In this document: positions 10,578-18,625 of the stretch, piece by piece
How the letters are laid out: the number at the start of each line of letters is the position of its first letter
Position numbering within the stretch: position 1 is the stretch's first letter
DNA from: Gammaproteobacteria bacterium
GTDB taxonomy: Bacteria; Pseudomonadota; Gammaproteobacteria; SZUA-152
DNA length: 45,333 bases
Assembly: GCA_021648485.1 (NCBI GenBank)
Contig: JAKISS010000022.1
Location: 1 to 45,333 of the forward strand
Direction: 5' to 3'
Position numbers and translations under genes: made by a program
Notes under the pieces: generated by a model
Seen by the model: only the letters and a program-made list of their open reading frames with translations
Databases searched by the model: none
What the model was told of the DNA's origin: nothing

Positions 10578-10665
10578 CATTTTATGCGGGCCTTCTACCA
10601 AACCTGAACTGTTTGAGGATGCCCCATATTCGGACTATAAAATCCCGGACGATTTGATGTGGTAA
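10578..10665 (+). pseudogene. Decayed 3' fragment of a DUF2058 gene
   Basis: The plus strand reads ILCGPSTKPELFEDAP, then YSDYKIPDDLMW and stop. This parallels the intact gene's end, ILCASPTKTESVEDDL then YADYKIPDDLMW and stop. Upstream of about 10575 the similarity ends, so only the last 28 or so codons survive. The fragment overlaps, antisense, the 3' end of the haem-propeller gene. Confidence 0.85.
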
Positions 10666-10717
10666 AGGATAAATTCAGGCCGTAAAAAGTCCACCAGGCA
10701 GAAATATCAAACAGCAT
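10578..10717. repeat. Direct repeat, right copy (DUF2058 3' end and downstream)
   Basis: Right partner of 7744-7886. It has an exact 37-base block (10631-10667), then roughly 75 percent identity for about 50 bases. The downstream half is coding sequence of the minus-strand haem-propeller gene. The left copy therefore appears to contain a decayed version of that gene's end as well. Confidence 0.85.
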
Positions 10718-13696
10718 TTCATTAACAGGAATGCTGTCAGGGTCAGCGGGATCAGTTCCTGCCCACCGCTCATCACCATTCAGCGCGCCGTCTTCGTCGC
10801 GGTCCAACGCAATACGCATGCCGGACCCTGGGGGCGCACAGGTGTAGGTAATATTATTGTGATGTTTGGCCTTTCTGCGCAATGCAGCATCGGTAATTTG
10901 CCTTTTATACATGGAGTCCTGTGCAAAAGTGCCATCCCGCTGATAGAGAAACCCCTGCTTTTTCTTTTGTGCTACCAGATCGCATTCACCAAGGTCAGCT
11001 CTTGCAATCATCAGGTCAATGCGCGGGCCAACAACATCACCATTGTGTTCAGTCAACGTAACCTGTTGGCCCATAATGGGGAAGAAGTTGCTGGGAAACA
11101 CCATCATGTACTGTTCAAGATTACGACGTATTTCCATTCCTTCAGGAGAAATTGGCAGATTGTCAGGATTACCCGGGTCCAATGGCGTCACCGTTCCTGG
11201 CGCACGCGGCAAAAACCCATTGGTATTGTGGAAACGAAAGATAGTATCCGTGCTGCCGTCCTGCGTATAACCAAAACCTTTGATTTGATCACCCGTATGT
11301 ACATTGTCATTTCCAAAGAAAAGTTGATGGGATATTTTCTGGAAATCTTCCGGTACACTCGGGTCCCAGGCGGGGTCCATTCCGGTAAAGGGGTCATCCG
11401 CCAGATACTTACGACTGTTAGGCATACCAAACATGCCCACCTTGTTGTACAAATTGCGCAGATGCGGAATTTTCAGGAATTGCTGAATAAAGGCAAAGGT
11501 ATTTCTGCTGTTGGTACCAAAAACACCTGGTTTGTCAGTTATGTCTTTATTGAAGTCACGATCAACCACATGGCAACCACTACAGTTAAATGCCGTGTCT
11601 ACCACTTTGCTGGAATCAAAAAAGAAATCCTTGCCCGCCTGCTGTGCTGACGTCAGAGAATCATCGAGGTGACGAATCGGGTTTGCCGGATACATCAATT
11701 CCAGCGCAAAATCAGTAAATTCATTCATGGATTCTGTGGACAATCGAGTGCTGCGCCCCTGTAGCCCTACAAACGTATTATTGAATTTGGAGAATGCCAA
11801 ACGTTCATTATAGATGCCCATGTCAGGTTGCACATTGTCTTCCTGAGAACCATCAGCTTCCAGGTTTCCTCCTGTCTGGTCACCACGCCAATGCATCGCG
11901 CCATGGTTGGCCATGCCACGCATGCTCTGCGTGGCCATTGGGCCTTTGACGGGTGCAAAGTGCGGGCTTACGGGCAGACCGAAATCTTCATGGTTAATGG
12001 CCAGATCACTGGGGCCACCCGGATAATCGGCGGCACTGGGATTTAATACCGCGTTAGCACTGGGATCACCCAGGGACCAGGCCAACTGGTCCATGTCACC
12101 AAATACATGGCATAGGGCACAAGAGCTGTCTCCACGACTGGAGGTCAGTGACGCATCGTAATGATACTGACGGCCTTTAACAATATGTGCAGGTTCGGGG
12201 TTGTACATCTGCACCTGCGAAAGTTCCGTATTGGTGTTGGTATCGACAATGGAAATGGCATTGTTAAAACGTGTTAACACATATAGACGATTTTTCTTTT
12301 CATGCAAGACAAGACCCGCAGGGCCACCACCGCTTAATTGAATTTGATGGGCAAGATCGGGAACAAAAGTATTATTTTCTAATTGAGCGGTATCAAACAC
12401 ACCGACCTTGGCTGAACCAAATGCAGCAACATACAGGGTTTTACCATCACTGCTGATGGCCATATCCATGGGCTGTGCCAGCGATCTGGCATTTTCATCA
12501 TTGGGCAGGTCATCACAACAAACACTGTAATCAATATGTTTATTCAAATGTACAGGTGTTACATTGCCATCATCCAGTACGCTGATGCGACTTTCGGCAA
12601 AATGTCCGTTGAGGGTTGTGTAATCAGTTGCGGGCGCATCGGTTGTTGCAGGCAACGTACCGGCAGGGCCAGTGAAACGCTTCAGGTTCAGTGCTTCGGT
12701 ATTGGTCACATAAACTTTGCCATTCACCGGGTTGCTGATCATGTTAAAGATAATGGTACCAACACCGGAAATGGCTTCAATTTCCACGGGTATAACAGCA
12801 TTGGCATCAATCACAAACACATCTTTATCCGGCAGAGTAAAATTAACCAGGTGATCCCAGACTTTACCGGTTTCATCAACCCAATGTTCTCCATCATGCT
12901 GCACAATCAGACCGGTTAACGGTTGCATATTGCCCGCCGTGTCGGTCATATGCGCTTCGGGTACACCATCACCATCGGTGTCCACATTCAAGCTGGCCAG
13001 CGGAACACCCCCATTATCGGTCACCACCGTTTCTGCAATGGTCGTCGTTTTGTTACCTGTTTTGAAACCGGCGGCATAAACTTTGCTGCCATCCGCAGAA
13101 ACGGTTAATGCACGGGGGGAGTCTGTAAACAAGGTAATGATGGTCAGCGGAGTACCGCCCAGGCTGGTATCATGATCCACATCATCGGCATCAAAAACCC
13201 AGACATCCGCGCGTCCCACACCCGGTGTGGTTAATGCCGGATCAACCGGTGAATTCTGGCCACGGTGTGCAGTGGTAATAAATGCTCGCTCGTTATGCTC
13301 TCCGGCAAAAACAATGTCCATGGGTTCATCGCCCACCAATAAGGTTTTCATCACCTGCTTGGCTCCACGACCAACATTAACAATACTGACACTGTCAGAA
13401 ATACTGTTAACTACCCAGACTTCATTGCGATTTCGCACAGCAAGTGCGACGGGTTCCATGCCCACCAGGATAGAGTGCTGATGTTTTAATGTGCCATTTT
13501 TTTTAATGCTGAATATTTCCAGACGATTGTCTGGCGTATTTAATGCGAACAGTTTTTTACCGTCCGGCGACATTGCTAAAGGCCGTACCTGCCCGGATTC
13601 AAAAAGTGTGTAAGCACTACCAGAAAATACAGGTGGCGCAAACAGTAATAGTATTACGATAATCAATAATAACGATTTATATCTACGATCAAACAT
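10595..13696 (-). CDS. Secreted beta-propeller protein with two haem c motifs
   Basis: A 1033-residue exported protein. Residues 1-25 are a signal peptide (LLLIIVILLLFAPPVFSGSA). About residues 30-510 carry YVTN/YncE-type propeller repeats such as RPLAMSPDGKKLFALNTPDN, MDIVFAGEHNERAFITT and MDMAISSDGKTLYVAAFGSA. Haem c sites follow near residue 526 (CALCH) and residue 705 (CSGCH), with MRGMANHGAMHWRGD between, as in dihaem peroxidase-like proteins. A late acidic stretch, DRDEDGALNGDE, resembles a calcium loop. A likely role is periplasmic or extracellular redox chemistry; the substrate is unknown. AGGAGGT before the ATG is an ideal ribosome site. The last 23 or so codons are antisense to the DUF2058 fragment, so the C-terminus is probably secondary. 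Confidence 0.88.
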   Translation of the reverse strand: MFDRRYKSLLLIIVILLLFAPPVFSGSAYTLFESGQVRPLAMSPDGKKLFALNTPDNRLEIFSIKKNGTLKHQHSILVGMEPVALAVRNRNEVWVVNSISDSVSIVNVGRGAKQVMKTLLVGDEPMDIVFAGEHNERAFITTAHRGQNSPVDPALTTPGVGRADVWVFDADDVDHDTSLGGTPLTIITLFTDSPRALTVSADGSKVYAAGFKTGNKTTTIAETVVTDNGGVPLASLNVDTDGDGVPEAHMTDTAGNMQPLTGLIVQHDGEHWVDETGKVWDHLVNFTLPDKDVFVIDANAVIPVEIEAISGVGTIIFNMISNPVNGKVYVTNTEALNLKRFTGPAGTLPATTDAPATDYTTLNGHFAESRISVLDDGNVTPVHLNKHIDYSVCCDDLPNDENARSLAQPMDMAISSDGKTLYVAAFGSAKVGVFDTAQLENNTFVPDLAHQIQLSGGGPAGLVLHEKKNRLYVLTRFNNAISIVDTNTNTELSQVQMYNPEPAHIVKGRQYHYDASLTSSRGDSSCALCHVFGDMDQLAWSLGDPSANAVLNPSAADYPGGPSDLAINHEDFGLPVSPHFAPVKGPMATQSMRGMANHGAMHWRGDQTGGNLEADGSQEDNVQPDMGIYNERLAFSKFNNTFVGLQGRSTRLSTESMNEFTDFALELMYPANPIRHLDDSLTSAQQAGKDFFFDSSKVVDTAFNCSGCHVVDRDFNKDITDKPGVFGTNSRNTFAFIQQFLKIPHLRNLYNKVGMFGMPNSRKYLADDPFTGMDPAWDPSVPEDFQKISHQLFFGNDNVHTGDQIKGFGYTQDGSTDTIFRFHNTNGFLPRAPGTVTPLDPGNPDNLPISPEGMEIRRNLEQYMMVFPSNFFPIMGQQVTLTEHNGDVVGPRIDLMIARADLGECDLVAQKKKQGFLYQRDGTFAQDSMYKRQITDAALRRKAKHHNNITYTCAPPGSGMRIALDRDEDGALNGDERWAGTDPADPDSIPVNEMLFDISAWWTFYGLNLSFTTSNRPGFYSPNMGHPQTVQVW

Positions 13697-14050: not shown

Positions 14051-15358
14051 CTAGTCGAAATGCTTTAACCGAAGCACATTCTGTATTTGTGTCTGCCACA
14101 CAGACGGTACACCGGCATCTTCGGCATAAATCTGCCAGTTCGATACAACCTGCTGCACTTCCCGGATAATAGCTTCGGCACGTCCGCGTTTCATTGCGGC
14201 TGTTTTTGCACAGGCCTTAAAATCATCCAGGGTAAAATTATCGCGTTTGCCGTTGAGCATCATTTGATGACTGGCAGTCCATCGGCCAACGGGATTAAAA
14301 CTGAATGTAAGGTCAAAAGCCGGTGACAATGACCAGGTGCCGGACTTGTCCATCAGAAAGGCGATATTTTTCACATGGTCATCCTGATTGCGAGCGATGA
14401 TATTAAACACCATGCGCCGAAATTGTTCTTCAATGGTCTTCATGGGTAAACCCAGCTGACGAATCACTAACAGTGTCTGCTCGTAGCTGTAGGCACCTGC
14501 GAGGTTAAAATCAAAATGTGCCAGCGCGCATAGCGATTGCATGTGCCGTTTTTCACCATTGGCCAGACGATCAAAACGCCGTGTCATAAAATGCTGTCGG
14601 CCATTTTCCTCGAACAGACGGCATTCACTGATCTCAATGCCACAATCCTTTGCCATCAGGTAATAAGCGTATTCAATAACACCAAAACCCTGCGGATCTT
14701 CCAGCTCTTTGTCCTGGTTTCCCGTAACACCATCAAACTTCAACAGCCAGTATTCAAAACCCTCCCCCCCTGGCACTTGCCCGGAACGTACTTCGTTGCT
14801 GGCTGGATTCCAGGCGATCACCGCCTTGGCGCGAGCACCTCCGGCTGAAGTGCCAACACGCAGAATATCAGCCAGCGCCCGTTCTTTTTCTGCACCTGCA
14901 AAGGAAGCACGCAGATCGCTGCGATGGCTAAGCACCTGCGATGCCAGTTTAACCAGTGTATCAATGTGTATCTGGTTTGCCTGCCGCGCCTGCGGCCCAA
15001 TGGCCGGGGTAAATTCCAGTGCCCCCATGCCCCGCTCTCCCGTGTAACACAGGCGCTCCAGCGCGTTAAACGAATCCGGCTGCCGTCCCTGGGTGGCCAG
15101 CCAGGCATCAATCAGGGCATTGCCAAATTTGTCCGGCAAGGAATCCGCCAGCAAACCCGGCAGACCGTGAAATGTCTGCCGGGACAACTCAGGGAAACGA
15201 TAAACACGGCTGGCCGACGGCATCATTAGTGGGGCAATTTCAATGCCACTACCAATAAACGCAGGATCATATTCAAAACTGGCAACGTTATCACCGTCAG
15301 CCAGCGATATCGCTCCAATACTGCGTCCCCATAACCGCACCTCGGTAACATGGCTCAT
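14051..15358 (-). CDS. hipA: HipA-type serine/threonine kinase toxin
   Basis: A 435-residue HipA kinase, near the 440 of E. coli HipA. E. coli HipA phosphorylates glutamyl-tRNA synthetase and arrests growth; the target here is inferred only by family. The N-terminal subdomain starts VTEVRLWGRSIGAISLADGD. The phosphate-binding loop is VGTSAGGARAKAVIAW, near residue 167, and includes the serine position that is autophosphorylated in relatives. Catalytic motifs are IIARNQDDHVKNIAF near residue 315 and SPAFDLTFSFNP near residue 340. All key residues seem present, so it is probably active. Its ATG overlaps the hipB stop (ATGA), which means coupled translation after the antitoxin. Confidence 0.95.
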   Translation of the reverse strand: MSHVTEVRLWGRSIGAISLADGDNVASFEYDPAFIGSGIEIAPLMMPSASRVYRFPELSRQTFHGLPGLLADSLPDKFGNALIDAWLATQGRQPDSFNALERLCYTGERGMGALEFTPAIGPQARQANQIHIDTLVKLASQVLSHRSDLRASFAGAEKERALADILRVGTSAGGARAKAVIAWNPASNEVRSGQVPGGEGFEYWLLKFDGVTGNQDKELEDPQGFGVIEYAYYLMAKDCGIEISECRLFEENGRQHFMTRRFDRLANGEKRHMQSLCALAHFDFNLAGAYSYEQTLLVIRQLGLPMKTIEEQFRRMVFNIIARNQDDHVKNIAFLMDKSGTWSLSPAFDLTFSFNPVGRWTASHQMMLNGKRDNFTLDDFKACAKTAAMKRGRAEAIIREVQQVVSNWQIYAEDAGVPSVWQTQIQNVLRLKHFD

Positions 15359-15717
15359 GTGTCGTCATCCCAGGACCATGGCTGCGGCTCTTCAGCAACA
15401 TGATTTGCCTGCCGCTGACCGGAAGCACGCTGTCGCACTTTGCCTTTTTTTTGTCGAAGTAAATCCATCGGACTCGGCTGGACATCGGGCAACAGCAATT
15501 CCAGATTTGGCAATAACTCCAGTACCCGGAAAATACGGATCAGGCTGGCCATCTGCGCCGAAGCGCCAGCTTCAATGCGTTCCACTGTACGCTTGGCGAC
15601 CCCGGCCTGTTCCGCCAGGTTGGCTTGTGTTAATTGCAATTCAAGCCGACGTCGTGCAATACGGCCACCAAGTTCGGCCAGAATAGCCTCATCGGCAAGC
15701 AACCTGGAAATTTTCAT
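15355..15717 (-). CDS. hipB: HipB-type antitoxin, XRE-family repressor
   Basis: A 120-residue antitoxin that should bind HipA and repress the operon. The helix-turn-helix covers about residues 20-70: LGGRIARRRLELQLTQANLA, EQAGVAKRTVERIEAG and a following helix ASLIRIFRVLELL. A charged, poorly ordered tail follows (QKKGKVRQRASGQRQ), as is usual for HipB-like proteins and their protease-sensitive C-termini. The ATG at 15717 is chosen over a GTG three codons earlier because AAAGGTGAC lies just upstream of it. That ribosome site overlaps the first of four operator-like inverted repeats, so repressor binding would cover it. It overlaps hipA by 4 bases. Confidence 0.93.
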   Translation of the reverse strand: MKISRLLADEAILAELGGRIARRRLELQLTQANLAEQAGVAKRTVERIEAGASAQMASLIRIFRVLELLPNLELLLPDVQPSPMDLLRQKKGKVRQRASGQRQANHVAEEPQPWSWDDDT

Positions 15718-15719
15718 TA

Positions 15720-15735
15720 TCGTCACCTTTGACGA
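15720..15735. promoter_or_regulatory. Probable HipB operator O1
   Basis: Inverted repeat TCGT-CACCTTTG-ACGA. It overlaps the hipB ribosome site. It follows the shared pattern TCGY-N6-TG-RCGA. Confidence 0.7.
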
Positions 15736-15759
15736 GTTAAGCCAAAAAACAGGCCTTTC

Positions 15760-15775
15760 TCGTAAATTTTGACGA
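15760..15775. promoter_or_regulatory. Probable HipB operator O2
   Basis: Inverted repeat TCGT-AAATTTTG-ACGA, starting 40 bases from O1, with the same spacer length of 8 ending in TG. It lies where the core promoter of hipBA is expected. Confidence 0.7.
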
Positions 15776-15805
15776 TATATAGCCTAAGCCAAGCAAAAAA
15801 TCAAA

Positions 15806-15821
15806 TCGCCATTACTGACGA
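15806..15821. promoter_or_regulatory. Probable HipB operator O3
   Basis: Inverted repeat TCGC-CATTACTG-ACGA, starting 46 bases from O2, same spacer length. One arm base differs between the halves. Confidence 0.6.
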
Positions 15822-15843
15822 ACTGTCATAACGATCCGTCATT

Positions 15844-15863
15844 ACTCGCAACTATTGGCGAGT
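15844..15863. promoter_or_regulatory. Probable HipB operator O4
   Basis: A perfect six-base inverted repeat ACTCGC-AACTATTG-GCGAGT, 38 bases from O3. It is the most symmetric of the four sites. The rest of the gap up to the lipoprotein start at 16292 shows no gene. Confidence 0.7.
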
Positions 15864-16291
15864 TACTCATAAAACATATCGAAATTGATTACAATTTGAG
15901 CAAGGCAACGCCCTCGCATTGGATATTTTTGTATCCACTCGCGTGAACAGCATTTTAACCCATCCACAATTTCCAGATACATTCACGTATACCCGATCTG
16001 TTACGCTGTCAGGAGCATGTGCATTTCTTAACCTTTTTATAGTTATGCCTCCGCTTGTCAACTCTCTCCTGATAACCCTATATTGAAAAATAAAATGAAC
16101 CTTTTTTATAAAGTTAAGCGTCAATTCCGTGTATCCGCAGAAAACATTGCAGGCTCCAGGCGACAGTGATTGAGGGTATGGCTTTAAACACCTGTCCCAT
16201 ACCAATCAGTCATACGCGTTCCAACGACGTTAAGAAAACAGAGAGCTATGCTGAACAAAATAACATCATCATATTCAACGAGGAAAATCGT

Positions 16292-18625
16292 ATGCTGTTC
16301 AAAACACACAAACATTGTGTAGCATGGCACAAATGGCCAGGATTGCTCATTTTGATATTACTGACAGCCGCCTGTTCCAATGACAATTCCAACCCTGCAA
16401 ACTCGGAGCCCGTATCGGAAAAATTAATACAGCGTGTTCCATTAGCCGCTTTGCGCCTGCAACAGGTCAATGATTGTAATGAATTAAAAAATTACATCTC
16501 CACGTCATTAATCAAACGTTATACATCAATCCCCCGCCACAATTATTACCGTTGTCCTTCGGACGGCGACAGACTCGAACCTGGCTCTCCCAGTGCGGGT
16601 GATGAAGTCGGTTTATCCGGTGGCGCATCCGATGATTCTCCAGCCACACCCAACGATGTTTCTGACACAAATAATCAGGTAGCCGGTGTCAATGAGGGCG
16701 ATATTGTAAAAACAGACCGGCAAGGCAATATGTACATTCTTAGTGGTCGGCACTTTATTATTGCGAAGGGGTTCCCTCCTCACGACTTAAGCACACTGGC
16801 TAAAATAGACTTGGGAGCACGCGGCTTAAATCTCTTTCTTGACAAAGAAAATCAGCGGGTCACCATTTTAGCCCGGCATGATGAACCTTATTATATTACC
16901 GATACACCTTCACAAACAGATGAAAGCTTGACTGTGATCTATCCGCAACCTGACAATGATTACACCACCGCCATCTTTTATGACGTTTCCATACCAAATA
17001 AACCTGAGGTCATTGAGCAGATTCAAATGCGCGGCTATTTCCGGGAAGGACGCCGGATTGAAAACCGCTTACACCTGGTATCCCGTCATTATTTACAGAC
17101 GGCTGCACTGCATACTGACCCTGAGTTTATTGATTTACAGAAAACATTTATCGACACCATCAATACCGTTAAATGCGACACACCCGATGGCGACATCGAA
17201 AATAACCCTGATGTGATACAGGCACAAAAAAACCTCGGTGAAAAAATTGAAAATATTATCAATGCCACTGATCCCGTGAATTTTCTACCGAATGCCAGAC
17301 GTATAACTGATGATACATCCGAGCCTGTTCCATATCTTGCCTGTAACAACATCAATCACCCCGAAGTCAACATGAGCCTTGGGTTGCAGATTATAACCAG
17401 CATAGACACTGACGGCTCCAATCTGGCTGCAACGGGTATTATTAACAATAGCCACATCGTCTATGCCAGCAAAACCAATCTCTATCTTGTTGAAAACAGT
17501 CGGAACTGGTGGTGGAGACTACCTAATGGCGAACGCCCAACCTCCCAATCAGCGATCTATAAATTTTCCATTTCAAAAGATGCGCCAAATTATGTCGCCA
17601 CAGGTCGTGTGGACGGGTATATCAATAACCCGTTCAGTTTGAGTGAGTACGAATATGACGGTAAAAACATGTTACGCATTACAACCACTCAGGATGATTT
17701 CTTGCGTATTGACAACGACAGCGGCACTCCTGACTGGCAGCGCATACAAACAAACCATTTATCCGTACTGGACGACAATGACAATGGCCAACTCAATATC
17801 GTAGGCGAAGTCCGTAATTTTGCACCCAATGAAAATATTCGAAGCGCACGCTTTATGGGTGAACGCGGTTTTGTTGTCACGTTTCGAAACGTTGACCCTC
17901 TATTTGCCTTTGACCTGAGTAACCCGACGTCCCCTGTATTGACAGGCGAACTCACTATCCCAGGCTTTAGTAGTTACATGCATCCATATGATGACAATCA
18001 TCTTGTTACTATTGGCCGTGCAGGTGGTGAAGGTGGCATCGGTGTCGGTAATGGCATGCAGTTGCAATTGGTCGATGTTAGCGATATGAGTGAACCAAAG
18101 GTGATTCATAAATTTACACCAGCTGTACCTCAAAACTGGTCTTGGAGTGCTGCCGAATACGACCACAAAGCATTTACTTTTTACAAACCGGCAAATCTGC
18201 TGGCCATACCCTTACAAATTTCGCCCATCGCTTCCAAAGAATATTTCAGCGGCGTTGCAGCTTACGAAATCACTTTAGCTTCCGGCTTTAAAGAGCTAGG
18301 CAGGGTAGATCATTCAGATTTAGCTTTTGATTATTATTGTCGCCCAGATGACTCACCACTGATTTATCCCCATACGGAAGATTGCGACAATGGCTGGTAC
18401 GTCCAATGGGCAGCACCACGACGTTCAGTGGTGATGACGGATGCTGAAAACGTTTATCTCTATACAATATCAGACATAGGACTAAAAGCTGCCTCAACCA
18501 GAGACTTATCAACGACCCTGGGAAGCATCGTTTTTCCACCGCAACCCTATCCATGGTGGTATTACGGTTACAGTGGTCGCGGCGGTGTCGCTACAACAGA
18601 TCAAAACATTGATATCATGCGTTAA
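16292..18625 (+). CDS. Beta-propeller domain lipoprotein
   Basis: A 777-residue envelope lipoprotein. The start MLFKTHKHCVAWHKWPG leads into the helix LLILILLTAACS, whose LTAAC lipobox implies lipidation of the cysteine. The ATG at 16292 is preferred over a start 42 codons upstream because it gives a proper lipoprotein signal and has GAGGA upstream. The mature part has the opening NNQVAGVNEGDIVKTDRQGN that marks the secreted Beta_propel family (PF09826 type), followed by blade-like repeats such as VATGRVDGYINNPFSLSEY, LSVLDDNDNGQLNIVGEV and RFMGERGFVVTFRNVDPLF. Function is unknown; propellers of this kind usually bind proteins or glycans. The gene stands alone and ends in a strong terminator. 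Confidence 0.88.
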   Translation: MLFKTHKHCVAWHKWPGLLILILLTAACSNDNSNPANSEPVSEKLIQRVPLAALRLQQVNDCNELKNYISTSLIKRYTSIPRHNYYRCPSDGDRLEPGSPSAGDEVGLSGGASDDSPATPNDVSDTNNQVAGVNEGDIVKTDRQGNMYILSGRHFIIAKGFPPHDLSTLAKIDLGARGLNLFLDKENQRVTILARHDEPYYITDTPSQTDESLTVIYPQPDNDYTTAIFYDVSIPNKPEVIEQIQMRGYFREGRRIENRLHLVSRHYLQTAALHTDPEFIDLQKTFIDTINTVKCDTPDGDIENNPDVIQAQKNLGEKIENIINATDPVNFLPNARRITDDTSEPVPYLACNNINHPEVNMSLGLQIITSIDTDGSNLAATGIINNSHIVYASKTNLYLVENSRNWWWRLPNGERPTSQSAIYKFSISKDAPNYVATGRVDGYINNPFSLSEYEYDGKNMLRITTTQDDFLRIDNDSGTPDWQRIQTNHLSVLDDNDNGQLNIVGEVRNFAPNENIRSARFMGERGFVVTFRNVDPLFAFDLSNPTSPVLTGELTIPGFSSYMHPYDDNHLVTIGRAGGEGGIGVGNGMQLQLVDVSDMSEPKVIHKFTPAVPQNWSWSAAEYDHKAFTFYKPANLLAIPLQISPIASKEYFSGVAAYEITLASGFKELGRVDHSDLAFDYYCRPDDSPLIYPHTEDCDNGWYVQWAAPRRSVVMTDAENVYLYTISDIGLKAASTRDLSTTLGSIVFPPQPYPWWYYGYSGRGGVATTDQNIDIMR

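Follow-up and report, generated by a model that had tools for sequence, protein, structure and literature searches.

The hipBA promoter in the window, i.e. the whole 45,333-nucleotide stretch of gammaproteobacterial DNA that was analysed, carries four inverted repeats of the form TCGY-N6-TG-RCGA. With a probability of about 0.92 these are operators at which a HipB dimer, alone or with HipA, would repress its own operon. HipBA is a classic persistence module. The kind of regulation, HipB autoregulation, is ordinary; its sequence, geometry and apparent code are new.

Table. Features of the hipBA locus, with positions in the window.
Feature	Positions	Strand	Sequence	Remarks
Putative operator O1	15720..15735	-	TCGTCAAAGGTGACGA (minus strand)	Ends 2 nt before hipB ATG; spans Shine-Dalgarno
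Putative operator O2	15760..15775	-	TCGTCAAAATTTACGA	Immediately 3' of -10 box
Putative operator O3	15806..15821	-	TCGTCAGTAATGGCGA	Immediately 5' of -35 box
Putative operator O4	15846..15861	-	TCGCCAATAGTTGCGA	40 bp upstream of O3
-10 hexamer	15776..15781	-	TATATA	Abuts O2
-35 hexamer	15799..15804	-	TTGATT	17 nt from -10, 1 nt from O3
hipB Shine-Dalgarno	15726..15730	-	AAAGG	Within O1, eight bases 5' of ATG in the sequence
hipB	15355..15717	-		Start codon ATG at 15717; antitoxin/repressor, 120 aa, XRE-type helix-turn-helix; Pfam HTH_3 1.2e-6
HipB recognition helix, residues 41-47	15577..15597	-	A-K-R-T-V-E-R	Codons; helix tracks operator arms
hipA	14051..15358	-		Kinase-type toxin, 435 aa; Pfam HipA_C 2.8e-52, Couple_hipA 1.5e-19

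The sequence-only reading of this stretch had proposed four inverted repeats, and the exact pattern does occur at four positions upstream of hipB: TCGTCACCTTTGACGA (start 15720), TCGTAAATTTTGACGA (15760), TCGCCATTACTGACGA (15806) and TCGCAACTATTGGCGA (15846). The last had been placed at 15844, 2 bases off, so that the spacings are a symmetric 40/46/40 instead of 40/46/38. O1 lies over the hipB ribosome site, as had been stated. With up to one mismatch the whole window contains 17 matches against 7.5 expected (largest count of 100 shuffles, 15), eight of which are both strands of the four repeats, and the 300 nt upstream of hipB hold four perfect 8/8 sites against about 0.01 expected. In the 3.13-Mb genome the exact pattern has 38 strand matches versus 25 for a reversed-pattern control, and no second cluster was seen, the hipBA array being the sole one. 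Nearly all other examined sites of the genome lie within long reading frames, and a single repeated sequence accounts for five of them. Because the exact pattern is elsewhere dispersed, for the most part within long reading frames, we do not claim a genome-wide regulon for it. The sequence TCGCCTTGCCTGRCGA is present in at least five genome copies, several of them outside long reading frames (contigs C36, C38, C42, C64 and C86; loci L011, L012, L016, L021 and L026), and looks like a dispersed palindromic repeat without relation to HipB.

The gene order is hipB-hipA, with a 4-nt overlap between the end of hipB and hipA; a HipA-type kinase toxin thus adjoins hipB, and the helix-turn-helix antitoxin gene lies upstream, as in a hipBA module of the type II toxin-antitoxin class. 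A HipA relative follows hipB in 82 of 85 homologous loci. The best NCBIfam match of HipB is couple_hipB (TIGR03070, Y4mF family) at 42 bits, below the curated cut-off of 71.65, and its AlphaFold model is poor (pTM 0.43), with fused helices. Large genes for beta-propeller proteins are located on either side of hipBA, at 10595-13696 (-) and 16166-18625 (+); by Pfam, one product is lactonase-type with a weak di-haem peroxidase match, the other Beta_propel (PF09826).

The promoter TTGATT-N17-TATATA fills the gap between O3 and O2 with one base to spare at O3 and none at O2, hence a middle spacing of 46 (16 + 1 + 6 + 17 + 6). O2 should cover the transcription start. Of 45 homologous loci, 20 show the same exact fit, with a 17-bp spacer and no gap between the -10 box and O2; the middle spacing (O3-O2) ranges from 35 to 49 among species, and loci with another value have a different promoter or none that can be recognised. 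Both middle spacing and promoter position differ in Thiodiazotropha and Acidobacteriota. The O1-O2 and O3-O4 spacings are 40 or 41 in most loci, and adjacent spacings across all KRTxER arrays (the HipB class defined below) are 40 (50 times), 41 (25) and 46 (17). As the pair spacings are fixed at 40/41 and the middle one is variable, the array reads as two nearly rigid pairs, O1-O2 and O3-O4, flanking the promoter, and not as the four evenly spaced sites, about four helical turns apart, that had been described. As the middle spacing varies and is determined by the promoter, we have given up the helical-phase argument for 40/46. Five acidobacterial loci (L086-L090) possess a -35-like TTGACA downstream of O2; there the promoter seems to have shifted by roughly one operator step, with the array left in place. 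At locus L076 the distance between operator pair and start is 30 bp greater, and a strong Shine-Dalgarno sequence (AAGGAGG) lies between the two, unlike other loci, where O1 spans the ribosome site.

About 100 HipB relatives were compared, with upstream regions taken from genome contigs, genome samples and plasmids; no relatives were found on viral contigs. Those with KRT[VLI]ER in the recognition helix form the KRTxER class (55 loci), from records of Pseudomonadota, Acidobacteriota, Myxococcota and Thermodesulfobacteriota. At least two sites are present upstream of hipB in 54 of the 55, the sole exception (L140) being at a contig end; 27 loci have four or more, several only two or three. The nearest site is situated 2-3 nt before the hipB start in 45 of the 55. 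Close homologues thus carry the motif that the sequence-only reading had proposed to look for, and these arrays, together with the sequence comparison, bear out its view of HipB operators with a recognition sequence unlike that of E. coli. In loci with the 40/46/40 register the arms are 84-94% identical to those of the window, versus 29-36% for the other intersite bases of distant loci. The predicted autorepression by HipB via the four sites is well supported, because the array is conserved in 54 of 55 loci and the arms are kept where the intervening DNA has drifted. Among 37 non-KRTxER homologues of a first set, including some as similar overall as some KRTxER proteins, the motif pair is absent in 36; of the 37, one has a pair of weak matches out of register, another has one match, and the others have none.

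Upstream of hipB, E. coli K-12 possesses four perfect TATCC-N8-GGATA sites with spacings of 28/39/28, so the 8-base spacer does agree with E. coli as had been noted. E. coli HipB binds its four N8-spaced palindromes cooperatively and represses (PMC3376134), and the operator DNA is bent by 70 degrees (PMC3920265); by analogy, cooperative HipB binding and DNA bending are plausible here. Common to both systems are four palindromes upstream of hipB with an 8-bp spacer in a symmetric a-b-a layout, as well as an XRE-type HipB, autoregulation (here predicted) and the hipB-hipA order (PMC3376134). The arms are TCGY/RCGA here in contrast to TATCC/GGATA; the E. coli consensus is absent and the sites have the N8 geometry alone in common, in line with the earlier statement that the arms differ entirely. 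The spacings are likewise different (40/46/40 here, with family pairs at 40/41), the site nearest to the ATG lies 2 nt away instead of 21 nt, and all DNA-facing positions of HipB differ from the E. coli recognition helix KQATISN. In E. coli-type HipB a C-terminal tryptophan docks in HipA; here Trp114 and Trp116 are both invariant in this HipB group and are followed by a few further residues.

Legionella pneumophila HipBST also has a genus-wide array of HipB-bound inverted repeats with arms unlike those of E. coli, but differs in its three sites, 53-bp gaps, six-base arms, conserved spacer and three-gene hipBST operon (PMC10653801). A series of identical inverted repeats occurs at the hipBA promoters of Caulobacter crescentus as well (hipBA1/hipBA2, PMC7029023), and no recognition-helix comparison was found in the accessible part of that report. 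The literature searched, which covered few subscription papers, describes hipBA operators in a small number of systems and yielded no relevant report of this consensus or of a code linking HipB recognition helix and operator.

An unbiased finder was used to search for two 16-bp palindromes with like arms at a set spacing, judged against dinucleotide shuffles (floor p = 1/61). At spacing 40/41 the floor is reached by 23 of 30 KRTxER and 15 of 38 other dereplicated loci (25 and 17 with a different random seed); eleven other spacings give 0-2 of 30 and 0-4 of 38, except for 10 of 30 and 3 of 38 at 46/47, the O3-O2 distance. In KRTxER loci the finder recovers TCGYCA with no motif built in. Other helices come with other arms: VRTLRR with AGGCCA, SERTLRR with CGGTCA, SRRTITR with GYGTAA, VATLRR with C[TG]ATCA and LSLNxIKS with AGYCTT. 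HipB residues 41-43, 46 and 47 correspond to the positions at which helix 3 of 434-type repressors faces the DNA. All 30 Arg43 loci have G as arm base 3, whereas 11 of 12 loci without Arg43 have another base there; base 2 is C in all 26 Glu46 loci and G in 13 of 14 Arg/Lys46 loci; and at base 5 Arg47 mostly goes with C and Ser47 with T. These counts are not phylogenetically independent, KRTxER being close to one clade; as most come from related proteins, they represent few independent changes (perhaps four to six). A tree of the HipA partners, made by a quick method and with many open forks, places KRTxER as nearly one clade with nested exceptions, namely L075 (KSTIER), the pair L103/L105 and the long branch L118, all of which lack TCG arms. 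The arms of L075 are TCATCA/TGATGA, which stand in the place of O2 and in the right half of that of O1, and L103 retains Arg43 and has lost the TCG motif. The operators of L103, L126, L128, L129 and the helix groups SRKxxLNA and SRxSYRK gave no reliable reading. Judging from these loci, the DNA-reading helix of HipB and the operator arms change together while the 40/41 spacing stays.

Binding of HipB to the four sites is something we infer, and E. coli hipBA is thought to have an IHF site too (PMC3376134), so another regulator, global or stress-related, might occupy the repeats and control hipBA in place of HipB. This is improbable: the motif clusters only at hipBA in the genome, and across phyla it goes with the recognition helix of HipB itself, including the helix changes inside the KRTxER clade. 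Common descent of the promoter DNA, with few or none of the sites functional, would fit the 71-82% of intersite DNA shared between the genus of the window and its nearest relatives, but hardly the distant loci, where intersite identity falls to about 30% and the arms stay conserved, and we consider it very improbable. The repeats might also act as RNA hairpins of the 5' leader, in translation control or as a terminator, and not as DNA operators; O1 spans the ribosome site, and O3 followed by TTTGATTTTT scores terminator-like. O3 and O4, however, are upstream of the promoter and would thus be missing from its transcripts, the conserved bases form short arms separated by 8 nt, as is usual where a helix-turn-helix dimer binds, and the arms track the DNA-reading helix, which leaves the hairpins with very little probability.

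If the repeats are HipB operators, each HipB subunit would set helix 3 (A41-K42-R43-T44-V45-E46-R47) on a TCGYCA half-site, with 8 bp between the four-base arms, as in E. coli. The sigma-70 core promoter is bracketed by O3 and O2 so closely that their occupancy may exclude RNA polymerase, and O4 and O1 would be the outer partners of the fixed pairs O4-O3 and O2-O1. Since the spacing within a pair is constant, its two HipB(HipA) complexes may be in contact or sit on a common stretch of bent DNA. As a DNA site, O1 also lies over the ribosome site. With HipB scarce, the promoter would open and the antitoxin be refilled.

Somewhat less firmly, we think it probable that a large group of HipB-like proteins uses one scaffold, of 16-bp palindromes in 40/41-bp pairs with, as a rule, 2-3 bp between the first palindrome and the start codon, on which specificity is swapped by two or three helix-3 residues: 43 would read base 3, 46 base 2, and 47 would go with bases 5-6. 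If so, the protein-DNA code can be read, its natural repressor-operator pairs are orthogonal to one another, and the 40/41-bp spacing of a pair would imply that HipB and HipA form a higher-order assembly unlike the 28-bp one of E. coli. The arrays would represent a second, widespread hipBA operator type with its own geometry and would allow single-residue predictions of which antitoxin reads which site; cross-talk between hipBA copies within one genome would become predictable, and natural orthogonal repressors would be on offer.

Alphaproteobacterial HipB relatives (L127, L132, L134, L145, L146 and L148-L150), several of which are encoded on plasmids (Roseibium, Nitratireductor, Pelagibacterium, Sulfitobacter), have arrays built from AGGYCA or CGGYCA half-sites; these make up another operator type that shares this geometry. 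Another large group of HipB proteins, with the helix LSLNxIKS (L041-L054), possesses AGYC-N8-GRCT palindromes at a spacing of about 41 bp, which in some loci end at or beside the start codon.
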